The notes under the pieces are model-generated. The model was not told where the DNA came from and did no database searches. It saw nothing but the letters and a program-made list of their open reading frames with translations. A program made the translations under genes and the position numbers. Shown here piece by piece: positions 3,467 through 41,326 of a stretch of DNA of 41,684 nucleotides (positions are counted from its first letter, which is position 1; every line of letters starts with the position of its first letter). This DNA is from a virus, in IMG/VR virus record IMGVR_UViG_3300044996_000161, positions 1 through 41,684 of that record. One strand, given 5' to 3'.

Positions 3467-4588
3467 ATGTCAGTCAAAAAATATACTCTTACTAAAGAAA
3501 CCAAAAAAGAACTTGGGGTAAAATTATTTAGAATTAAAGCCCTAATCTCTTTTGGTAACATTAAAAAGGAAGAATTAGGTGGATGGATAGAAAAAGAAGA
3601 CAATTTATCTCAAGATGGAGACGCATGGGTTTATGAAAACGCATGGGTCTATGGAAACGCACAGGTCTCTGGAAGCGCACGGGTTTATGGAGACACACGG
3701 ATCTCTGAAAACGCACAGGTCTCTGGAAGCGCACGGGTTTATGGAGACACACGGATCTCTGAAAACGCACAGGTCTCTGGAAGCGCACGGGTTTATGGAG
3801 ACGCACGAGTCTATGGAGACGCACAGGTTTATGAAGACGCACGGATCTCTGGAGACGCACAGGTCTATGGAGGCACATGTGTCTCTGGAAATGCCTGGGT
3901 CTCTGGAAACGCCTGGGTCTCTGGAAACGCACGAGTCTATGAAGACACACAGGTCTCTGAAAACGCATGGGTCTATGGAAACGCATGGGTCTATGGAGGC
4001 GCACGGGTCTCTGGAAACGCACAGGTCTATGGAGGCGCATGTGTCTCTGAAAACGCATGTGTCTCTGGAAACGCCTTGGTCTATGGAAACGCATGTGTCT
4101 ATGAAAACGCACAGGTCTCTGGAAGCGCACGGGTCTTTGGAAACGCCTGGGTCTATGGAGGCGCACAGGTCTATGGAAATGCACGGGTCTATGAAAACAC
4201 ACGGGTTTATGGAAACGCATGGGTCTATGAAAACGCACAGGTCTATGGAAATGCCTGGGTCTCTGGAAACGCCTGGGTCTCTGGAAACGCACGAGTCTAT
4301 GAAGACACACAGGTCTCTGAAAACGCACGGGTCTTTGGAAACGCATGGGTCTATGGAGGCGCACAGGTCTATGGAAATGCCTGGGTCTATGGAGACGCAC
4401 GAGTCTATGGAGACGCACAGGTCTATGGAAACGCACAGGTCTATGGAAACGCATTGGTCTATAACAAACTTCTATGTGAATTTGGTTATTACTTTGCATG
4501 TAGGCAAAAAGATTGGCAGATTACGGAAGTACCAGTTGACGAAAATTCTATTCTTTTAGTTATAGATTACAAAAAACCCACAAAGTAA
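3467..4588 (+). CDS. Left-handed beta-helix (hexapeptide repeat) protein, YdcK-like
   Basis: This 373-aa protein has an N-terminal segment ('KALISFGNIKKEELGGWI' at 25-42, then 'NLSQDG') of the kind found in E. coli YdcK and related phage proteins. It is followed by exactly 47 consecutive hexapeptides of the form [G/E]-[NDSG]-[A/T]-x-[V/I]-[Y/S/F] (residues 51-332) and a non-repeat C-terminal cap (333-373). Three hexapeptides make one turn of a left-handed parallel beta helix, so about 15-16 turns are expected. Acyltransferases share the fold but carry a catalytic histidine loop; none is seen, so this is more likely a binding or structural solenoid. The SD AAAGGAGGT is strong. The array is nearly identical at DNA level and so probably prone to length change. 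Confidence 0.85.
   Translation: MSVKKYTLTKETKKELGVKLFRIKALISFGNIKKEELGGWIEKEDNLSQDGDAWVYENAWVYGNAQVSGSARVYGDTRISENAQVSGSARVYGDTRISENAQVSGSARVYGDARVYGDAQVYEDARISGDAQVYGGTCVSGNAWVSGNAWVSGNARVYEDTQVSENAWVYGNAWVYGGARVSGNAQVYGGACVSENACVSGNALVYGNACVYENAQVSGSARVFGNAWVYGGAQVYGNARVYENTRVYGNAWVYENAQVYGNAWVSGNAWVSGNARVYEDTQVSENARVFGNAWVYGGAQVYGNAWVYGDARVYGDAQVYGNAQVYGNALVYNKLLCEFGYYFACRQKDWQITEVPVDENSILLVIDYKKPTK
3617..4462 (+). repeat. 47 tandem copies of an 18-bp coding repeat
   Basis: Forty-seven in-frame 18-bp units encode hexapeptides such as GNAWVY, GNAQVY and GSARVY. Higher-order duplications are visible: a 54-bp block (encoding QVSGSARVYGDTRISENA) occurs twice in tandem and then begins a third time near 3660-3795. 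A longer block encoding WVSGNAWVSGNARVYEDTQV occurs near 3898-3957 and again near 4258-4317. This points to expansion by unequal recombination or slippage. Confidence 0.95.
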
Positions 4589-4636: not shown

Positions 4637-5194
4637 ATGCAGGAAATTATAATTCAGTCCCAAAGAGATTTAGACAAAGTTCCGGAGAACTTTGAGGGTT
4701 TAATAAAATTTGTAAATTGCAAGGAAATAATTTACATAGAAAAATCATATACCAAGGCAATTTTAATTCTCCTGAATTGTTACATTGAAAGCTGGGGCTC
4801 CTCTCAGAACACGATTAAAAGCTTTGGCTCCTCCCAGAATACGATTAAAAGCTTTGGCTCCTCTCAGAATACAATTGAAAGCTGGGAGTCCTCCCAGAAT
4901 ACGATTAAAAGCTGGGACTCCTCTCAGAATACGATTAAAAGCTTGGGTTCCTCCAAGAACACGATTGAAAGCTGGGATTCCTCTCAGAATACGATTGAAG
5001 GCTGGGGCTCCTCTCAGAATACGATTAAAAGCTGGGGCCCCTCGGTTTTATCAGTTATAAGAAACAATGGCAATTTAGGAATAGACCTTCATGGACACTC
5101 TATTGCTATAATTCCAGAAAAAATCAAAATCAAAAAAGCAAAAACAGCGACAATTGTTTTACCAAAATTCAAAAAAGGTGTTATTCCTTATTAG
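4637..5194 (+). CDS. Decapeptide-repeat (SSQNTIKSWG) solenoid protein (185 aa)
   Basis: The N-terminal domain (residues 1-50) runs into eight tandem decapeptides of consensus SSQNTIKSWG (55-134). A C-terminal region follows with 'LGIDLHGHSIAIIP' (about 147-160) and a basic end. Metagenomic phages often carry related 'SSQ-x-T' arrays. The alternating Ser/Gln/Thr/Ile pattern suits a beta-solenoid with one turn per unit or per two units. The gene follows directly after the other repeat protein, has its own SD (AGGAGG) and is probably co-transcribed. The biochemical role is unknown; binding to host protein or polysaccharide is inference. Confidence 0.8.
   Translation: MQEIIIQSQRDLDKVPENFEGLIKFVNCKEIIYIEKSYTKAILILLNCYIESWGSSQNTIKSFGSSQNTIKSFGSSQNTIESWESSQNTIKSWDSSQNTIKSLGSSKNTIESWDSSQNTIEGWGSSQNTIKSWGPSVLSVIRNNGNLGIDLHGHSIAIIPEKIKIKKAKTATIVLPKFKKGVIPY
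4799..5038 (+). repeat. Eight tandem 30-bp coding repeats
   Basis: Eight 30-bp units encode SSQNTI[K/E]S[W/F/L][G/D/E]. Units differ mostly at third positions and at the G/D/E residue. The period is a multiple of three, which also opens a second reading frame (4785-5060) that is not a gene. Confidence 0.95.
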
Positions 5195-6901: not shown

Positions 6902-7124
6902 CGCTAAAACAACTCTTTCAAAAAAAGAGATAAAAGAAACAGTCAAAATTTTAGAAAAGTCTCAAGTAAAACCTATTACTTATTTTTATTTTAATAGGAG
7001 ATTTCCATTTATACATAAAACGGAAATGATAGATGTTGTAGATATGATGGTAAATTTTAGAGGAAGAGAAAAAGCAGAAGCAATAGACAAAGCAATACTT
7101 AATACTCTTAAAAAACATGATTAA
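6885..7124 (+). CDS. Hypothetical protein (79 aa)
   Basis: A 79-aa, lysine-rich, mostly helical protein. The ATG at 6885 lies inside the previous gene's last codons, so translation is coupled; a TTG two codons upstream is possible but less likely. 'KTEMIDVVDMMVNFRGREKA' (residues 45-64) is a probable amphipathic helix. Its stop overlaps the co-chaperonin start by 8 nt. No family is recognised. Confidence 0.6.
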   Translation: MIKHINAKTTLSKKEIKETVKILEKSQVKPITYFYFNRRFPFIHKTEMIDVVDMMVNFRGREKAEAIDKAILNTLKKHD

Positions 7125-7371
7125 AGTTTTAGACAATTACGTTTTAATTGAACCAGAAAAGATGGAAGAAGTTACGGTCGGTGGTATTGTCTTACCTCAA
7201 GAAAGGAAAGACACACCCCAGACTGGTATTGTAATTGATAATGGAGGCCTAGATTTAGCAATAGGAAAAAGAGTTTGGTTTAAAATGTGGTCAGGGGAAA
7301 ATATTAAATACGAGAACAAGGAATATAAAATTGTGCATTATAAAGATTTACTAGCTTATGAAGAAAAATAA
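7117..7371 (+). CDS. GroES-like co-chaperonin (Cpn10), 84 aa
   Basis: The sequence follows Cpn10 along its length: 'LDNYVLIEPEK' (strand 1), a mobile loop at about residues 17-33 containing the hydrophobic 'GGIVLP' (22-27) that docks on GroEL, 'TGIVI', then 'IGKRVWFKMWSG' and 'EYKIVHYKDLLAYEE'. It is somewhat shorter than host GroES (about 95-97 aa), and the roof hairpin appears reduced. Like T4 gp31 it probably re-targets the host GroEL chamber to phage proteins such as the capsid protein; that role is inferred. It sits in the early strand, as expected if it must be present before head proteins. Confidence 0.88.
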   Translation: MIKVLDNYVLIEPEKMEEVTVGGIVLPQERKDTPQTGIVIDNGGLDLAIGKRVWFKMWSGENIKYENKEYKIVHYKDLLAYEEK

Positions 7372-7716: not shown

Positions 7717-7881
7717 ATGGTTAGTAAAATATTATTCTGGCTATCTTTGGTTTGGATAATCTTATCAACTTTTTGGTATGGCTATGTGGTAACTCAGGGA
7801 GGAGCTTACCAACTAGACTTTGTAGGTAATTTTATCGTTTTATTATTTCTCCTCTTGACATTTAGGAAACAGTTGAGTTAA
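7717..7881 (+). CDS. Two-helix membrane protein (54 aa)
   Basis: A 54-aa protein with two hydrophobic segments (about residues 4-26 and 35-49) separated by a short polar turn 'TQGGAYQLD', ending 'FRKQLS'. Its start is fixed by a GGGGGTGA SD containing the previous gene's stop. It is the last protein gene before the noncoding block. A possible early membrane effector; no family is recognised. A weak promoter (7855-7883) lies over its 3' end. Confidence 0.6.
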   Translation: MVSKILFWLSLVWIILSTFWYGYVVTQGGAYQLDFVGNFIVLLFLLLTFRKQLS

Positions 7882-7883
7882 AT
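7855..7883 (+). promoter_or_regulatory. Possible promoter for the leader/ncRNA locus
   Basis: Perfect TTGACA (7855-7860), 17-nt spacer, weak -10 TTAAAT (7878-7883). The predicted start is at about 7890, the A of an ATG, the same leaderless geometry seen at other promoters of this phage. The -10 matches the consensus at only four of six positions. Confidence 0.45.
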
Positions 7884-7889
7884 TAAAAT

Positions 7890-7982
7890 ATGAGTAAAAT
7901 TGTGGCATTATATCCGTTTTATTCTGTGGCTTTCGGCCACAATTGTAGCCACAGAATCAAGCGGATATTTTTTTGTGGTTAA
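7890..7982 (+). CDS. Possible 30-aa leader peptide over an attenuator-like hairpin
   Basis: A 30-codon ORF starting 'MSKIVALYPF' and ending 'RIFFCG' runs exactly through the hairpin at 7899-7974 and stops at 7980-7982. It would be read from a leaderless mRNA if the weak promoter at 7855 works. The open frame may simply be chance over a symmetric sequence. Its placement inside an attenuator-like fold makes a leader-peptide role worth considering. Confidence 0.3.
   Translation: MSKIVALYPFYSVAFGHNCSHRIKRIFFCG
7899..7974 (+). terminator. Large terminator/attenuator-like hairpin with U7
   Basis: Outer stem ATATCCG (7910-7916) with CGGATAT (7962-7968); inner 10-bp stem TTCTGTGGCT (7922-7931) with AGCCACAGAA (7947-7956); then seven T (7968-7974). 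An upstream ATTGTGGC (7899-7906) can instead pair perfectly with GCCACAAT (7936-7943), interleaving with the inner stem. The end of the early operon and a riboregulator are both compatible with this. Confidence 0.7.
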
Positions 7983-8335
7983 GCGACAGGGGAGCTAAGT
8001 CTAGTGGTGTCGCAGCACAGAAAAGCACTAGAACAATACTTGATGCTATTCCGACAGCACTCGGGATTGGAACTCAGGAATTGTCTTAAAGGATACAGCA
8101 ACTCACGCTACCAAGTCGTATCCCTTGTACAATATCAATGTACAACTGATAGGGAAGCTAAAACGATACGGAGAAAAAACCGAAAATTGTCGTTTTTAAA
8201 TAACCTTCTTACGGGGAGACGCCTCTCTTGTGGAATCTTGGAATTGATGTAGATACTAAAAAGACACCCAGAGGATGTCTTAATAGCGAAAGCTAAATAG
8301 AACCAAAAGGAACTATCTAGTAGAGCTTAATTATA
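7976..8335 (+). ncRNA. Candidate large structured noncoding RNA, class unknown
   Basis: About 360 nt without a credible gene but full of inverted repeats: GCGACA/TGTCGC (7983-8013); ACAAT/ATTGT (8033-8084) around CCGA/TCGG (8051-8064); GGATAC/GTATCC (8091-8123); TTGTACA/TGTACAA (8125-8145); AAAACGA/TCGTTTT (8160-8196) enclosing CGG/CCG; AAGACA/TGTCTT (8261-8281); TAGC-GAAA-GCTA with a GNRA loop (8284-8295); ATAG/CTAT (8297-8316). The base composition is richer in G and C than the surrounding early genes. I see no tRNA, tmRNA, RNase P or group I intron core signature. Phages carry large ornate RNAs (GOLLD, ROOL); this may be similar in kind but I cannot match it. Ends are approximate, and strand is inferred from neighbours. 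Confidence 0.55.
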
Positions 8336-8371
8336 CCATAAATGTATCTATAAGTCAAGCTAAACTGTGTA

Positions 8372-8400
8372 TTGACAAGGTATAACAAATAGAGTATAAT
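8372..8400 (+). promoter_or_regulatory. Early sigma70-type promoter
   Basis: Perfect TTGACA (8372-8377), 17-nt spacer ending ATAGAG, perfect TATAAT (8395-8400). The start is predicted near 8407, giving a leader of about 24 nt without an obvious SD before the ATG at 8431. It drives the 8431-11369 gene set. Confidence 0.85.
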
Positions 8401-22345: not shown

Positions 22346-23374
22346 TCAAACTAAATTTTCCAAGAAATGCTTTATATCTTCAAATTCTTTATCATAATCT
22401 ACAACACACCTAAATCTATTATAAGCGTTAAAACTCATCCAGTGATTCTCTCGTGGTTGAGAAAAATGTTTGATTCTGTCTAAAATTTGTTCATTACTTT
22501 TTCCGTGTATATCAATACAAGTAAGTTCATCAGTCAACAGCTGACCAGCTAGTTTATCCTGATAGTCAAATATATCTGTAATTATCGGTCTACCACAAGC
22601 ATACCAATTATGGATTACATGACCGAAACCATCACCCTTAGGTTTGATATGCCAACCAAAAGTGGATTGTCGCATAATATCTGCAATTCCAATATCAGAA
22701 GAAATAGTCCCATCAGGCGTACTTGCTCCATAAGCCTTGAATTCAAAATCAGGTAAATTTAATTTCGCCCACTCATATAAATCTACTCTGGGTAGAAGGT
22801 TTATAAAAGACGTAATTTTACGGAAATTCTGCGGTTTTTCATAGCGAAAAACATCAAGATTAAACTCCTGGTGGTAGAAAACGATATGTTTGTCAGTAGG
22901 GTAGGGTAGAGTAGAACACATGACATTTTTTACTTCAGTCTGTTGATAGATATTTCCCATCTGGGCTATTTGTTTAGCTTGCGGTTTATATTCGGAAATT
23001 AACCTAGCATAAGTCTGATCATGTCCAAAAGGATAAGAAGATATAACTATATCAATCGGTAGTTCACAAAACTTTTCAAAGGTAATACATTTAATATGAC
23101 ACCTGTGAACTGGATCATAAACATGATAAATTCCATCCTCAATTTTATAGTCTGCATTTAAGTTCTTATAAGCATCCCAAGTTCTATCATCTGTTCCAAG
23201 ATATTGCTTAGCAGTATCGGCTGGATTAGGATACGGATTTCCTATATCCCAAAAACCTTTATAAAACCAATCCATTCCTATAGGGAAATAAATATTCCAG
23301 CCTAATCTTTTTTCAAAAAGGAGCTGAAGGGAATAGGTTAAATCCCCATGATGTCTGTCGCAAAAAACATTCAT
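22346..23374 (-). CDS. GT-B-type glycosyltransferase (342 aa)
   Basis: A 342-aa protein with a Rossmann-like N-terminal half ('IDIVISSYPFGHD', 107-119) and a GT-B C-terminal signature 'WHIKPKGDGFGHVIHNWYA' (241-259) followed by 'CGRPIITD', the acceptor/donor-binding region in which a glycosyltransferase would place its sugar-nucleotide. It is the last gene of the transferase block and abuts the previous gene without a gap. Donor and acceptor are unknown. GT4-like by pattern, weaker than the two GT4 genes upstream. Confidence 0.7.
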   Translation of the reverse strand: MNVFCDRHHGDLTYSLQLLFEKRLGWNIYFPIGMDWFYKGFWDIGNPYPNPADTAKQYLGTDDRTWDAYKNLNADYKIEDGIYHVYDPVHRCHIKCITFEKFCELPIDIVISSYPFGHDQTYARLISEYKPQAKQIAQMGNIYQQTEVKNVMCSTLPYPTDKHIVFYHQEFNLDVFRYEKPQNFRKITSFINLLPRVDLYEWAKLNLPDFEFKAYGASTPDGTISSDIGIADIMRQSTFGWHIKPKGDGFGHVIHNWYACGRPIITDIFDYQDKLAGQLLTDELTCIDIHGKSNEQILDRIKHFSQPRENHWMSFNAYNRFRCVVDYDKEFEDIKHFLENLV

Positions 23375-24136
23375 TTAATACTCCCAAAATTTTAATAACC
23401 AGTCTATAGGTTGATATTCACCTAACATATTTTCAATCTCATTCATAAAGGAAAAGAATTGGAAGTTTTGTTTATAATATCTTTTTGCCTTATAATTATA
23501 AGTCAAAAATTCATCACGTTTAAAAATTGTTGCTAAGTTTCCATCACGACAAAGATTATAATTATGAGTTAAACCTTGTAAATGATACCAGTCTTTTTTA
23601 AATTCCAATCCAAGTTTTTCTAATTCTCCTATTCCTTCATTACCAATTTGAGCTACAATATCCTGTGAAAATTTTCCAAAATGGTCTAACTTATCAGGAA
23701 TTATTCCAAAATCTTTTCTTGTCTTATCCAGAAGTTCTCTTTTAACCAATAAAAAAGCAGGATGAAGTCTATTTGCTTCCCAGAAAGAAATAACAGAATA
23801 AACTTTCTGTGCCTCTAAAATCTTTTCCCAAAAACTATTATTCTTCCAGAAAAAGTCCTGTTCCAAAAACAAAATCCAATCAGAATTAGATACTTCTAAG
23901 GCTTGATTTACAGCTACATTGCGCCAATCTTCTTCTCCATTTGTATCTCTTCCTTCCACAAAATAAATATTATGTAATTCTATTGCTTCCCTGACAAAAG
24001 ATGAATAATCTCCATAAAAGTTTTTACCAGTAAAAGTTACAATAATCTTCTTAAAATAAGCATTAAAATATTCTAGCTGTTTACGCCAGAGAGGATAATC
24101 AATACTTCTGGGATGAATAGTAATTACATCTATCAT
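23375..24136 (-). CDS. GT-A glycosyltransferase-like protein (253 aa)
   Basis: A 253-aa protein: 'MIDVITIHPRSIDYPLWRKQ' start, 'DWRNVAVNQALEVSNSDWIL' (70-89) and 'FLEQDFFW' (90-97), where E-x-D takes the DXD position that binds a metal and sugar-nucleotide. The region before it, 'RNVAVNQAL', is the typical GT2 helix. It overlaps the preceding gene by 4 bp. Acceptor unknown; the short length leaves only the catalytic domain. Confidence 0.75.
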   Translation of the reverse strand: MIDVITIHPRSIDYPLWRKQLEYFNAYFKKIIVTFTGKNFYGDYSSFVREAIELHNIYFVEGRDTNGEEDWRNVAVNQALEVSNSDWILFLEQDFFWKNNSFWEKILEAQKVYSVISFWEANRLHPAFLLVKRELLDKTRKDFGIIPDKLDHFGKFSQDIVAQIGNEGIGELEKLGLEFKKDWYHLQGLTHNYNLCRDGNLATIFKRDEFLTYNYKAKRYYKQNFQFFSFMNEIENMLGEYQPIDWLLKFWEY

Positions 24137-25167
24137 ATTCCTAAAAGCTCCTTAAATACCTTCATTTTTCTTAAAATTTCATCAGTATTTAGTGAAAAAG
24201 ATCCAATCAGTCGGATTATTGCTTTTTCATACTGTTCTCTAAATTCTGAAATTTCATTACATTCATTTTTAGTAACTTCAAAAGCCAACCAAGTATGAGC
24301 TACTCTACTTTCAAAATCAGCTCTAACTCCTGGATTAGTCATGTCATCCGTATTTGATAATTTATCTATTTTAGTTTCTGGATAATTTCTTGATTCCAAA
24401 GGTAAATTATTATCATCTATTAACCAGTTAGTCATCATTCCTGATAAAGAACCAAAATGTATCCATTTACAATTACCATCCCACATTCTCTGTTTATGTT
24501 CATAAAACTGCAAATCTTCGGCCATAGCATGATACTGTTCAATAAAATCTATATTTAATCCCTGAGAATAAAGTTGAATTGCAGCCCAACCAAAAGTATC
24601 CATTGCCTCCTCATTAGTATCAACAATCCAATCCAATTCTTTAATATAATCACCTTTCTTAAAACCCTTAGCACCAAAGACCAAATCTGTTTTTTTTAGA
24701 TATTCCAGTCTAGTAAAAAGGAAACAGGGCCACAAGAAAGGTTCATTACCCTCACAGTAATAAGTATATTTAACTCTTTCAGAAATTCCAGGTGTAGCAG
24801 AACATCTATGACCACCAATTACATCAAATTCCTTCTTTTCAATTTTTTGAAATTGTTCTTCCAAAGCTCCAGACTTGAAAATTAATCCATCATCTTCAGC
24901 AAGCATTACTAATTCTTCTTTACAATTCAGGACTAATTTTTTAATTGCCCAGCCATGTTCCATCATCTTATTCTCATAAAGAAAAACTACTTTAGGATTA
25001 GAAGTATAAAATTTACGAATAAAATCAACGACAGAATTCTCTATTTTAGAGTTAAGAAGAATATATACTTTATCTACTTCTTTTTGCCAGCGAGATTCAA
25101 AAAGATTAAACCAAAGTTTATTAAGAAAAGGATCACCAGGCGTAGGAAGCAAAATAGCTTTTGTCAT
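24133..25167 (-). CDS. GT-A glycosyltransferase-like protein (344 aa)
   Basis: A 344-aa protein with a GT-A-type N-terminal half ('AILLPTPGDPFLNKLWFNLF', 4-23; 'KVYILLNSK', 33-41) and 'LVMLAEDDGLIF' (86-97), in which E91-D92-D93 occupies the DXD site. The C-terminal half is helical and rich in Trp and acidic residues ('YHAMAEDLQFYEHKQRMWDG'). It overlaps both neighbours by 4 bp. No further family can be named. Confidence 0.7.
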   Translation of the reverse strand: MTKAILLPTPGDPFLNKLWFNLFESRWQKEVDKVYILLNSKIENSVVDFIRKFYTSNPKVVFLYENKMMEHGWAIKKLVLNCKEELVMLAEDDGLIFKSGALEEQFQKIEKKEFDVIGGHRCSATPGISERVKYTYYCEGNEPFLWPCFLFTRLEYLKKTDLVFGAKGFKKGDYIKELDWIVDTNEEAMDTFGWAAIQLYSQGLNIDFIEQYHAMAEDLQFYEHKQRMWDGNCKWIHFGSLSGMMTNWLIDDNNLPLESRNYPETKIDKLSNTDDMTNPGVRADFESRVAHTWLAFEVTKNECNEISEFREQYEKAIIRLIGSFSLNTDEILRKMKVFKELLGI

Positions 25168-25688
25168 ACAAAAATCACTCCTATACCTGTACTTTCTTTA
25201 GATACTTTAATTTCTACAAAAGGATACTCTTTTTTAATCTCTTGCCAAAACATATCAACCTCCTCAGTTTTGTCTGCATGATATAAAGCATCGTGAAAAG
25301 CAATAATACCTGGCGATTTAACCAAAGGTAAATACATTTCAAAATCCTGTTTAACACCATTATATGAATGATCTCCGTCTATAAAAAGGAAATTTACTGG
25401 TTGGTTATCCAAAATCCTTTTGACTGTTTGAATTACATTTATATCGTGTGAATCTGAATTAAATAGATAATGTATATTATTACTTATTATTCTTATACCA
25501 TCTGGATTTTCATTATCTTTTTCAAGAGTTATTAACAAATGAGGCTGTAATTCATTCCACCATAATTCAGTACTAAAACCTTTCCATGTCCCTATTTCCA
25601 AAACAACAGGCAATATCCTAGCTTTAAGAAATGGTAAAAGTACCGTCAAATCAAACTTGTCTATTGAAGCCCGATAATCTGTTCTCAT
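25164..25688 (-). CDS. Class I SAM methyltransferase (Methyltransf_24-like, 174 aa)
   Basis: A 174-aa protein with motif I 'VVLEIGTWKGFST' (28-40), motif II acidic 'LITLEKDNE' (52-60) and 'NFLFIDGDHSYNGVKQDF' (99-116), the DGDH(S/A)Y signature of Methyltransf_24/cephalosporin-hydroxylase-like enzymes that often methylate sugars or glycan ends. 'GIIAFHDALY' follows. Embedded among glycosyltransferases with 4-bp overlaps on both sides, it probably methylates the glycan they build; the substrate is inferred. Confidence 0.85.
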   Translation of the reverse strand: MRTDYRASIDKFDLTVLLPFLKARILPVVLEIGTWKGFSTELWWNELQPHLLITLEKDNENPDGIRIISNNIHYLFNSDSHDINVIQTVKRILDNQPVNFLFIDGDHSYNGVKQDFEMYLPLVKSPGIIAFHDALYHADKTEEVDMFWQEIKKEYPFVEIKVSKESTGIGVIFV

Positions 25689-26593
25689 ATTTTTTCTAGC
25701 CAGGAATGATATTTTTCAAATTGTTTGATATAATCATTAGAATCATTAGAATTTCCAAAAGTATTTAATATATTATCAATTAACTCTTGAGATTTGGTTT
25801 TAAGAGCAAGAATATAAACCCAAGCCAATAATCTTCTAGCTTCTCTGTTTGGAACTAGACCAAAATTCTTATCATCTAAAATCTTTAGCCCACCACCAAA
25901 ATTTCTAATATGATAATAACCCAAGTTTGGATTTTCCTGCAAAGCCCAAAGTTTAGGTGGAGTATCAAGCCATTGACAAGAAGTTATCTTACCATCATCT
26001 TCAAGACTAATTGTACTTCTATCATCCTGCAATTCTTGTATTTTTATCCCTTTTTCCAGTAATTGTTCAGTTATTACCCCCATAGAATCAGTCCAATTCT
26101 CTCCACCTCTAGGAGTAAAATCAAAACCATGTGGAAGAATAGATCTTCTCAAAAAACAAAGATAAGGACATATTCTTCTTCTTTCTGCCCTATTTTTATT
26201 TTCGGCCATAATAGGATATTTGTCTCCCAAACAAGTTCCACCAGAACTATCTAAAATAGTCCAAATATCATCATCACATTCCTCTAAGGCACTAAAATAT
26301 ATTTGAATAATTTCAGGATTATAAATAATCATATCAGAATCCATTAAAAGCAAAAGAGGTTCTGAAACCTGCCGTATCATTTCGTTCATATTCTGCCAAT
26401 GAGATTGTTTAGGTTTTTTAATAATTTCAATCTTATAATGAGGAGATTCATTTATCCCAAATCCTGAATCAACAACATAAACTTTATTTACATAACCTAT
26501 CCATTTCAAACAATGCTTTAAAAAGAAATTATAAAGAACCTTCTGGAAAGAAGAGCCATAATCAAAAAACGAAACTATAACTGCTCTATTCAT
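25685..26593 (-). CDS. GT-A glycosyltransferase (302 aa) with DXD motif
   Basis: A 302-aa protein with 'NKVYVVDSG' (36-44) and 'LLLLMDSDMIIYNPE' (80-94), a clear DxD (D85, D87) after a hydrophobic strand, as in GT2/GT-A enzymes. The C-terminal part ('NLGYYHIRNFGGGL') provides a likely acceptor-site histidine. It overlaps both neighbours by 4 bp, so all are made in sequence. Sugar and acceptor unknown. Confidence 0.75.
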   Translation of the reverse strand: MNRAVIVSFFDYGSSFQKVLYNFFLKHCLKWIGYVNKVYVVDSGFGINESPHYKIEIIKKPKQSHWQNMNEMIRQVSEPLLLLMDSDMIIYNPEIIQIYFSALEECDDDIWTILDSSGGTCLGDKYPIMAENKNRAERRRICPYLCFLRRSILPHGFDFTPRGGENWTDSMGVITEQLLEKGIKIQELQDDRSTISLEDDGKITSCQWLDTPPKLWALQENPNLGYYHIRNFGGGLKILDDKNFGLVPNREARRLLAWVYILALKTKSQELIDNILNTFGNSNDSNDYIKQFEKYHSWLEKI

Positions 26594-27603
26594 ATATTAT
26601 CTAAAAATTGTTTCCACTGCTGTTTGATTTTTTCTTTACCGAATAATTCAATCGCTCTTTGCCTAGCCCTTTTTGACATATCAGAAATAAGTTCCATTTT
26701 TGCGTTATTTAAAAGAAATTTTGTCTTTTCCTCAAGTTCTACAATATTAGCTCCCACAAAACCATTATAACTATCTTGTATAATCTCGTCTACTTCGTAA
26801 GTATCCTGTTCGTTGATAAACACATCATTACCAAGTTTTTTATCCACTGCTACAATAGGAATACCTGTCATCATAGCCTCAATGAAAGTAAGAGTATAGG
26901 AAGCTGGTTGAGTTCCTGTATAAAAAAAACACCTATTATCTCTAAGAACTTTCTTAAAATCTTCATAAGACAAACTACCACCCCAAAAATCCGCATCCTG
27001 GTTATTATCGCCATAAAGTTGTCTAGGAAGTAATTTTGTAGCTTCCAGAAAAATATCATAACCGCAAAATCTTCTTCGGGTTATATGAGCGATTCTTTGT
27101 CCAATCGTAATTACCTGTTCAATATTTCCATTCCAATCTTTAAATTCATCTGGGTCTTTATAAAATCTGATAACCGCATCACAACCCAAATTAAAGTCTA
27201 TATTTAATTCTTTAGGAGAATAACGGACAACCAAAAGACCCTCTTTCCTATAAGGTAAAAGCTGATTTTCCGTAAAGGCAATAGATTGTCCTATCGTTCT
27301 TAATACAACTTTTTTGTGTTTCATCTTATCCCAATTATTTATAATCCATTCTGGTTTATGGTCAATAATAATAACATCGGCCATTTCTATTTGCTCTGGG
27401 TGAAGATTATCCTGCGAATAAACATCCCTTAAAGAAACAAAATGGGAATTATATTTCCCCTCTGTGGCTGGTCGTTTAATATCGTGTGGGGAAGCAGGGT
27501 TGATATAAGAACCCATGCTATAAACCTCATGGCCTAATTCTGTCCAAATTTTATATTGGTCGTATTCCAAAATACTATGGCATGGTAAGTATAGGATTTT
27601 CAT
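26590..27603 (-). CDS. GT4-like glycosyltransferase (337 aa)
   Basis: A GT-B protein: 'MKILYLPCHSILEYDQYKIW' N terminus, 'VITIGQRIAHITRRRF' (164-179) as the hinge strand, and 'YTLTFIEAMMTGIPIVAVD' (236-254), which carries the conserved E-A-x-x-x-G-x-P-(I/V)-V donor-binding motif of GT4 (E242). It overlaps the genes before and after by 4 bp. It is probably a retaining transferase using a nucleotide sugar. Confident at superfamily level. Confidence 0.85.
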   Translation of the reverse strand: MKILYLPCHSILEYDQYKIWTELGHEVYSMGSYINPASPHDIKRPATEGKYNSHFVSLRDVYSQDNLHPEQIEMADVIIIDHKPEWIINNWDKMKHKKVVLRTIGQSIAFTENQLLPYRKEGLLVVRYSPKELNIDFNLGCDAVIRFYKDPDEFKDWNGNIEQVITIGQRIAHITRRRFCGYDIFLEATKLLPRQLYGDNNQDADFWGGSLSYEDFKKVLRDNRCFFYTGTQPASYTLTFIEAMMTGIPIVAVDKKLGNDVFINEQDTYEVDEIIQDSYNGFVGANIVELEEKTKFLLNNAKMELISDMSKRARQRAIELFGKEKIKQQWKQFLDNI

Positions 27604-28673
27604 TTATAGTCAAAATGCTCCGTTAAAATATTTAAAATATGCTGTCCACAAACCTCCCAATTCCAATCTTTATGCATCCATTCTGAAGCTAGTTTACCTT
27701 TTTCCATTGCTTCTTTTCTATGTTCATAAACATACCGCATCAAATACATCAATTCCTGTATATCTATCCTAGCCTGAAATCCTGGCTGAATTTCTTTCCT
27801 ATAATCAGGCCAATCAATCGCCACTGGTTTTATCGGATAGTTATATCTTTCATCACATATTTCAGATAAACCACTCCAGTTGGTCATAATTACAGGAAGT
27901 CCTGTTGCCATAGCTTCCCTAGGTGGCATACCAGAACCTTCAGCACGGGAAGGAAAAACAAAACAATCCAAATTTCTATAAAAATCCATCATCTGTTCAA
28001 AAGTCCATAAATCATCAATTATCTTAACACGATGATCTATAGAAATTTCAAATCCAAAAGTATTGTTAGAATTTTTTATCCAGAGTTCAACTGGTTCTTC
28101 CTTTTCAGGTTCAAATTCTGAACAAAAAGCTCTAATAAGTTCTTTCCAGTTTTTCCTTTCATCCATCCAACCTACTGTACCAAAGATAAATTTATTCTTT
28201 TTTGGCCGTTCTATATAAGGATAAAGAGCAGAATTAACACCTTGTTTAACAACATAAATATCTCTTGTACAACCACTTTGTTTAAAAACATCAACTAAGA
28301 ATTTAGAAGGAACAAATATCGCAGCCATACCATTGCAATTCTCAATCCATTTAGGATTTACCATTGTATTTTCAACCATTGTATAACCTATTTTTACTGC
28401 GGATTGATTTTCCCCAAAACGGTCAGGAGTAGTCTTAATAATACCAAGTCTGGCCTTCTCAAAGGGTTTTTCAGAAACTAAATATTTCTGTTCAGAAGTT
28501 AAAGTTTTCCATTCCAAAGAATTATTAGGATTTGCTCTTTGCCAACCAATACTAACTTTTCCATTTGTTAATTTATTCATCGCTACAGCCAATTCCATCA
28601 TTACAATACCATATCCTGAAAATGGTGTTATCCAACCATTCCAATTAAGGTTTTCCTTGTATTCCTTCTGCAT
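27600..28673 (-). CDS. GT4 glycosyltransferase (357 aa)
   Basis: A GT-B/GT4 protein with 'FSGYGIVMMELAVAMNK' (18-34, N-terminal Gly loop), 'GYTMVENTMVNPKWIENCNG' (96-115), 'FIFGTVGWMDERKNWKELIR' (162-181, phosphate-loop region) and 'FPSRAEGSGMPPREAMATGL' (240-259), the full ExxxxxxxE motif (E245, E253). It starts inside the preceding head-associated gene (29-nt overlap) and is first of the six sugar-related genes. The catalytic framework looks intact; substrate unknown. Confidence 0.9.
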   Translation of the reverse strand: MQKEYKENLNWNGWITPFSGYGIVMMELAVAMNKLTNGKVSIGWQRANPNNSLEWKTLTSEQKYLVSEKPFEKARLGIIKTTPDRFGENQSAVKIGYTMVENTMVNPKWIENCNGMAAIFVPSKFLVDVFKQSGCTRDIYVVKQGVNSALYPYIERPKKNKFIFGTVGWMDERKNWKELIRAFCSEFEPEKEEPVELWIKNSNNTFGFEISIDHRVKIIDDLWTFEQMMDFYRNLDCFVFPSRAEGSGMPPREAMATGLPVIMTNWSGLSEICDERYNYPIKPVAIDWPDYRKEIQPGFQARIDIQELMYLMRYVYEHRKEAMEKGKLASEWMHKDWNWEVCGQHILNILTEHFDYK

Positions 28674-40582: not shown

Positions 40583-40612
40583 AGTATAGTGCTATAACTA
40601 AGGATATGTCAA
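40583..40612 (-). promoter_or_regulatory. First late promoter, leaderless geometry
   Basis: Minus strand: perfect TTGACA (40612-40607), 18-nt spacer, -10 TATACT (40588-40583, one change from consensus), then 7 nt to the ATG at 40575. It faces away from the early promoter at 41040, across the candidate origin. Confidence 0.65.
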
Positions 40613-40619
40613 TAAGCCC

Positions 40620-41035
40620 TGGTCTGAGAAGGTATTAACTTCTTCTTACCAACGCATTTTATCAATTAGAGCTACTAGTACCCTACCCCTAGTAAATTTA
40701 AAACCCATATTCTTTACTAGTATATTGTGCCTAGCACTTACTTATGTATATGTATAGAGTTATATATATACTTAGGGTAAGAGTAATAGTAAAGGTAATA
40801 TATATAGCTAAGGGTAAGAGTAAGAGTAATAGTAAGAATACTAGAGAGTTAGTAATAACAGTATGTTATGAGTAGTAAGATTATACCCTTTTCTATCCTT
40901 TTACATCCTTCTCTACCCTTTACTCCTTATCATTTCTCTTACCCTATACCATTTCTTTATTCTTACCCTTACCCTTTATTACAATTAGTAAAATACTATT
41001 ACTAAAACATTAATAAATACATTAGTAATAGATTA
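40620..41035. other. Candidate replication origin: repeat-rich noncoding region
   Basis: No gene is seen in 40576-41326. Iterated units AGGGTAAGAGTAATAGTAA (40774-40792) and an expanded copy (40811-40835) face inverted copies such as CTCTTACCCT (40936-40945) and TCTTACCCTTACCC (40961-40974). This makes a purine-rich block followed by a pyrimidine-rich block. Very AT-rich TATATA stretches flank them. Divergent early and late promoters lie on either side. Iterons, strand asymmetry and AT-rich DNA suit an origin. A packaging site is the alternative, given the adjacent terS. Confidence 0.55.
40673..40722. promoter_or_regulatory. Pair of TACTAGTA palindromes 42 bp apart
   Basis: The perfect octamer palindrome TACTAGTA occurs at 40673-40680 and 40715-40722. 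Start-to-start spacing is 42 bp, close to four helical turns, so two dimers would sit on the same face. Possible operator or terminase/replication protein site. Confidence 0.4.
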
Positions 41036-41039
41036 CTAC

Positions 41040-41069
41040 TTGACAAGTATAATACATATAGTGTATAAT
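41040..41069 (+). promoter_or_regulatory. Main rightward early promoter
   Basis: Perfect TTGACA (41040-41045), 18-nt spacer ending ATAGTG, perfect TATAAT (41064-41069). The predicted start near 41076 gives a 250-nt leader before the ATG at 41327. Confidence 0.82.
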
Positions 41070-41326
41070 AGTGTTGAAAGCTAGAGAACCAAGAGTGATA
41101 CTGACTAAGAGACCCTTACGTCATTAGCAGTTTAAACCTCTTAACACTTCTCAAATACTTTCAAATAATCAGGTAAGGAGGTAAGGCCAGAGCAAGGCGT
41201 ATGATACCTACAACTAGCCTAAACCCTTCTAAAGACTAAAGCACCTTAACAATTTAATATCTTAACTACAAAAGAGAAGGCATAAGCTACAAACAAAGTA
41301 GGCGAGTAATCGCAGAATGGAGGCTT
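41070..41326 (+). other. Long 5' leader with orphan SD and 12-codon ORF
   Basis: About 250 nt of untranslated leader precede the gene at 41327. A near-perfect SD (AAGGAGGT, 41175-41182) has no start codon within 5-12 nt; the next ATG (41201) opens a 12-codon ORF (41201-41239, starts MIPTTSLNPS). TTGAAAG (41074-41080) can pair with CTTTCAA (41158-41164). A cis-regulatory leader or a small RNA is possible; no known riboswitch was recognised. Confidence 0.4.

Follow-up and report, generated by a model that had tools for sequence, protein, structure and literature searches.

The question raised by this locus is whether an intergenic stretch in the early region of a phage genome encodes a structured RNA, and if so, on which strand and with what role. 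The window analysed here, a phage record of 41,684 bases (IMGVR_UViG_3300044996_000161; 35% G+C), carries a 28-bp direct repeat at both ends and is thus probably a circular and complete genome; its early genes lie on the plus strand and its late genes on the minus strand, and it encodes a P22-like portal, GroES and a major head protein. Searching with the protein sequences of the early genes revealed no near relatives, public phage records contain few or no relatives of the large proteins tested, and the large-terminase candidate, tried as a route to relatives, matched only a near-identical fragment. In a preliminary description, positions 7976-8335 had been read as one large RNA without a credible ORF, situated between the end of an early operon and a perfect promoter. 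The hairpins listed for this region exist in the sequence, the promoter behind it is indeed perfect (Table 1), and the region folds at -92.2 kcal/mol, against -76.7 kcal/mol for dinucleotide shuffles (z -3.5). The opposite strand also beats shuffles (z -3.4), and in a whole-genome scan about 20 segments of 240 nt from the same genome, many of them coding, score lower in folding. Folding energy alone thus does not mark the region as special and cannot settle whether the RNA is real; the comparative evidence from homologues is decisive.

Homologues were sought in IMG/VR with the 16-base pattern AACTCACGCTACCAAG from the largest hairpin loop. Among its nine matches, one (L006, phage A) was similar beyond the pattern itself, and phage B (L025) was found by a gapped pattern of two conserved blocks. 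The remaining pattern matches were due to chance (coding DNA, tRNA 3' ends and apparent RNA-phage contigs), so that only L006 and L025 hold; further pattern scans of IMG/VR and of genome contigs yielded no more homologues, and no credible match to the RNA came from BLASTN searches of phage and plasmid records at the sensitivity used. Phages A (43.6 kb) and B (42.6 kb) carry one copy of the element each; their terminase, portal and head genes identify both as tailed phages. In BLASTP comparisons of the three proteomes, the window had almost nothing in common with either relative, and A and B shared a terminase large subunit (47%) and a nuclease (31%). This near-absence of common proteins indicates that the RNA is shared by phages of different kinds.

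The three sequences follow a common plus-strand order, with a promoter-like site, a terminator-like hairpin followed by 5-7 U, an H-type pseudoknot, a long hairpin, a hairpin with an invariant loop, a variable hairpin, GAUAGGGAAGCU, and a further hairpin whose A-rich loop is accompanied by an A-rich bulge of 5 nt (Table 1). The promoter-like site upstream of the putative plus-strand RNA is supported in all three phages, the equivalent places in the relatives reading TTGACC-N17-TATGTT (9/12) and TTGACA-N17-TAGTGT (9/12), the latter read by eye in phage B and below the scanner threshold. The terminator-like hairpin, previously assigned to the end of a different operon, is part of the arrangement common to all three phages; in the relatives, hairpin and U7 or U5 end 15-20 nt before the pseudoknot, and since the upstream gene in phage A is divergent, the hairpin there is not the end of an upstream plus-strand operon and belongs to the RNA unit. 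The leader hairpin of phage A (L006:243-298) also contains mutually exclusive pairings, GGGAUAAAGA/UCUUUAUCCC versus AAAAGCUCUUUGC/GCAAGGAGCUUUU, as terminator/antiterminator switches do.

Table 1. Features at and around the structured RNA locus of the window.
Feature	Position	Strand	Evidence
Promoter-like site TTGACA-N18-TAAATT, putative promoter of the plus-strand RNA	7855-7884	+	10/12 consensus
Terminator-like hairpin (7910-7968), then U7 (7968-7974)	7910-7974	+	-29.8 kcal/mol, z -6.1
H-type pseudoknot	7983-8032	+	Same layout is the best pseudoknot in 3/3 sequences; Fisher p 2e-4; pairs compensate
H3, long interrupted hairpin, outer ACAAU/AUUGU, inner CCGA/UCGG, CAGCA in loop	8033-8084	+	Fisher p 0.007
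H4, GGAUAC (8091-8096)/GUAUCC (8118-8123), 21-nt loop	8091-8123	+	4/6 stem pairs covary
H5, variable hairpin UUGUACA/UGUACAA	8125-8145	+	7/7 pairs covary; Fisher p 3e-4
UGAUAGGGAAGCU, conserved single-stranded motif	8147-8159	+	12/13 bases identical in all three
H6, outer stem 6-9 bp, 3-bp inner stem, A-rich loop, 5-nt A-rich 3' bulge	8160-8196	+	8/10 pairs covary; Fisher p 7e-6
H7, GGGAG/CUCUC	8214-8227	+	Fisher p 0.001; p 0.30 in window alone
Predicted small RNA, ~66 nt, two hairpins, intrinsic terminator (stem 8281-8261, then UUUUU)	8256-8321	-	Promoter, terminator, strand-specific fold
Minus-strand promoter TTGACT-N17-TATAAT, extended -10 TG	8330-8358	-	11/12; best minus site in first 12.6 kb
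Promoter of next early operon, TTGACA-N17-TATAAT	8372-8400	+	12/12

Within this plan, the pseudoknot of the window consists of S1 (GCGACA 7983-7988/UGUCGC 8008-8013) and S2 (UCUAGUG 8000-8006/CACUAGA 8026-8032), and the stem sets of the three sequences differ: GCGACA/UGUCGC with CUAGUG/CACUAG, AAGGC/GCCUU with CCCUC/GAGGG, and CCGAC/GUCGG with UGGGGG/UCCCCA. Loop 3 of the pseudoknot is 12 nt in 3/3 sequences (holding ACAGAAAAG in the window), the H6 bulge is exactly 5 nt in 3/3, and the 17 nt of ACUCACGCUACCAAGUC (8101-8117) within the H4 loop are identical in 3/3. H3 and H7 are the weakest helices, phage A having no clear inner stem in H3; H7 is the probable 3' end of the shared RNA. Neither this pseudoknot nor the invariant loop had been noticed in the preliminary description.

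Over the whole hand alignment of the three sequences, 142/143 pair cells are standard and 37/52 pairs are compensatory, counts that lean towards the fold outside the core, where the alignment was structure-guided. In the core (H4, H5 and H6), the alignment is anchored by sequence, through the invariant loop and the GAUAGGGAAGCU block. Here 19/23 pairs changed on both sides and 98.5% of cells pair, a result reached by 0/500 shuffles, and core pairing falls to 34-41% when the partner strand is slid by 1-3 columns. MAFFT alone mis-registers H6; the hand alignment was N-padded instead, with its contiguous letters checked against the source, and the per-helix support given in Table 1 comes from independent shuffle tests (Fisher p). 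A covariance model built from the three sequences scores 98-108 bits on them, a match by construction; elsewhere in 445 kb no score exceeds 16 bits. Three phages sharing almost no proteins are thus shown, by sequence comparison, to carry one common covarying non-coding fold. While ordinary single-sequence z-scores for the window genome might suggest accidental hairpins in AT-rich intergenic DNA, the covariation and the invariant loops in three unrelated phages make chance extremely improbable; it is already refuted for the core and could hold, if anywhere, only for H7 and portions of H3.

The evidence on the RNA is comparative, coming from three sequences, and on this basis the element is almost certainly a real and new RNA family; the family is new, while its general kind, structured phage RNAs, is already known. 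An Rfam library search of the region gave no match at gathering and, up to E 10, only chance microRNA-like fits to a hairpin; no match of any credible kind was seen for the region, and phages A and B had none at E up to 5, GOLLD and ROOL included. The view that the region is an unassigned structured phage RNA therefore stands, lacking an Rfam match and showing covariation among homologues, namely the window and its two metagenomic relatives. tmRNA, RNase P RNA and group I introns are likewise compact pseudoknotted RNAs of similar length; the shared RNA differs from them in being intergenic, with no tRNA-like ends found and no ARAGORN or Rfam match. As had been stated, no tRNA or tmRNA was recognised (ARAGORN, 0 genes in the window; no Rfam match either), and no RNase P RNA or group I core (no Rfam match for the region up to E 10). 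The absence of a credible ORF was also borne out. The only ORF of at least 60 aa is a GTG frame at 8004-8252, rejected as conserved coding: CUACC and UAGGG, the blocks with the strongest conservation, are spaced by 37, 42 and 39 nt in the three relatives, not all multiples of three, so that conserved coding is ruled out.

While a conserved structured RNA is real, the limits of 7976-8335 proved wrong, the core being at about 7983-8227, and two RNAs on opposite strands had been merged into one. The part at ~8240-8335 is present in the window and absent from A and B. The GNRA tetraloop stem reported there exists, its loop only on the plus strand, but it lies outside the shared RNA, and this part fits a minus-strand RNA much better. 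The 66 nt of the putative small RNA fold at -24.5 kcal/mol on the minus strand (z -6.35) versus -13.8 kcal/mol on the plus strand (z -3.47), both hairpins are complete only on the minus strand, and in each of them a minus-strand G-U pair becomes an A-C mismatch on the plus strand. By consensus match, this strand has its own promoter and Rho-independent terminator, their activity being predicted. Taken as sequence signals, these features make a separate minus-strand small RNA at 8256-8321 likely.

The shared RNA itself very probably lies on the plus strand. Its helices contain 4 G-U and 0 A-C among 143 pair cells, and 35-43% of unpaired positions are A; G-U without A-C, together with A-rich unpaired bases, points to the plus strand. 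The core also folds better on plus than on minus in the window (z -2.4 vs -0.6) and in phage B (-1.0 vs +1.1). If the conserved RNA were instead a minus-strand transcript from the 8358-8330 promoter, this would agree with that promoter being stronger than the plus candidate and sitting at the right edge, and the 3' third of the region does look like minus strand; yet the base-pair and unpaired-A counts and the core folding run against it, as does the lack of a comparable minus promoter at the 3' end in A and B, and we regard it as very unlikely.

The position of the large RNA suggests control of virus gene transcription. A promoter, an attenuator-like hairpin, a structured RNA and genes following without a strong terminator between them fit a cis-acting leader. 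In A and B the first plus-strand ORF begins within ~40 nt after the RNA; no promoter was seen in this interval, and nothing terminator-like beyond, at most, a weak site. No strong plus-strand terminator after the RNA was found in any of the three phages. The genes downstream are entirely different from phage to phage; in phage B, the DNA methylase gene that follows the RNA (L025:1985-3619) is apparently split by an HNH endonuclease frame. We tentatively propose that the structured RNA is the plus-strand leader of a phage transcript and acts on polymerase, with a separate small minus-strand RNA behind it; for a cis-acting leader as such, the chances appear evenly balanced. The transcript would run from the promoter through the U-run hairpin into a compact RNA, in which one or more pseudoknots accompany two invariant single-stranded motifs, and would work in cis while being transcribed. 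The invariant loop and GAUAGGGAAGCU would be its contact points; the two could also pair with each other (GCUACC with GGGAAGC). The target of the RNA might then be the elongating RNA polymerase, which under its action would continue into the operon that follows, and in the window the small RNA just behind the core might add antisense or convergent-transcription control. Antisense action of the loop on the phage's own genes was rejected, as no complement of at least 10 nt was found elsewhere.

The closest parallels to such a leader are put (of HK022), EAR and conAn2, likewise structured RNAs near the promoter that heads a phage or mobile-element operon, put working through RNA alone (PMC9378689, PMC8955417). 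RNA-only antitermination by put is known at phage early promoters (PMC9378689), and EAR and conAn2 are RNA-based polymerase modifications, conAn2 being located where long operons begin (PMC8955417). As judged from Rfam and descriptions, the resemblance has limits: put comprises two stem-loops of ~70 nt near an early promoter, whereas the shared RNA measures ~245 nt, contains a pseudoknot and follows a terminator-like hairpin, and thus differs from the put type in both size and fold. Internal terminators are a sign of RNA-based polymerase-modification systems (PMC9378689, PMC8955417). Here, unlike in put, EAR and conAn2, few terminators lie downstream, and no family match was seen: terminator scans of the operons behind the RNA gave counts of intrinsic terminators not above shuffles, and a looser scan found few strong plus-strand ones. 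With no terminator excess downstream there is little to antiterminate, and the sole strong terminator-like hairpin precedes the RNA, where the nascent RNA cannot act; polymerase antitermination in particular is therefore rather doubtful.

In the window, moreover, the perfect promoter between the RNA and the next genes means that those genes do not need a leader. This promoter directly behind the RNA would suit a free-standing trans-acting RNA, cut out or made as its own transcript and acting on a host machine, for example the ribosome or RNA polymerase, broadly in the manner of GOLLD and ROOL. The wholly different downstream genes, which leave no common target gene, and the long invariant single-stranded motifs, which resemble contact sites, would also suit it. 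GOLLD and ROOL are large structured non-coding phage RNAs whose function is not known (PMC12286853). While GOLLD is often >800 nt and the studied ROOL ~660 nt, both often near tRNA islands, the shared RNA is small and, the window having no tRNA genes, not next to any; neither family matched by covariance model in the window at E up to 10. The remark that the RNA is not recognisably GOLLD or ROOL was thus correct, ~245 nt plus a 5' hairpin not being their size. It also speaks against a trans-acting RNA that none of the three phages has a strong terminator to define where the RNA stops. We consider such an RNA possible though not probable, nearly as likely as the cis-acting leader.

In ColE1, a structured sense RNA (RNAII) is paired with a short, strongly promoted opposite-strand RNA (RNAI), and the window shows a similar combination. 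On this model, the shared RNA would serve at an origin as a structured primer or preprimer, under antisense regulation by the small minus-strand RNA. Sense and antisense RNAs that overlap and have strong promoters would agree with it, and no polymerase, helicase or initiator was recognised among the early proteins tested (part of the proteins scanned). Unlike the ColE1 pair, however, the antisense RNA here lies behind the conserved core and in the window only, being missing from A and B, and no origin signature was found. Replication control is thus a minor rival and quite improbable.

Returning to the leader, a fold kept in three phages with almost no common proteins probably does something hard to replace, and its target is most likely a conserved host machine. 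A bolder version, which we hold to be unlikely, would be a novel class of phage leader RNA that unrelated phages retained as their proteins changed, and that commandeers the host RNA polymerase or ribosome by means of the invariant 17-nt loop and with no phage protein, an antisense RNA serving as its switch in one lineage. Very few examples of RNA-only polymerase control are known (put, EAR), so that a third type, larger and with a pseudoknot, would be of value, if true. The covariance model and the invariant loop provide a handle for finding more members and for reporter tests.

Several other features of the three genomes were observed. A chaperonin part is present in two of the three RNA-bearing phages, GroES (Cpn10) in the window (7117-7371) and a GroEL-like chaperonin (Cpn60) in phage B (L126:14144-15691); phage B also encodes a Peptidase_M24 protein of the methionine-aminopeptidase family (L126:3003-3665; E 1.7e-48), unusual for a phage. 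In the window, at 41060-41326, a near-perfect promoter-like TTGACA...TATAAT is followed by ~250 nt without a listed ORF before 41327, which may be another leader or non-coding RNA, and the intergenic stretch at 40600-41000, near the genome ends, is dense in short TAAGGGTAAGAGTAATAG-like repeats, a possible origin or packaging signal. Neighbouring short-repeat proteins are encoded at 3467-4588 and 4637-5194 (a YdcK-like beta solenoid and SSQNTIKSW repeats), and the late genes at 22346-28673 include a glycosyltransferase-like gene cluster and other unassigned genes.
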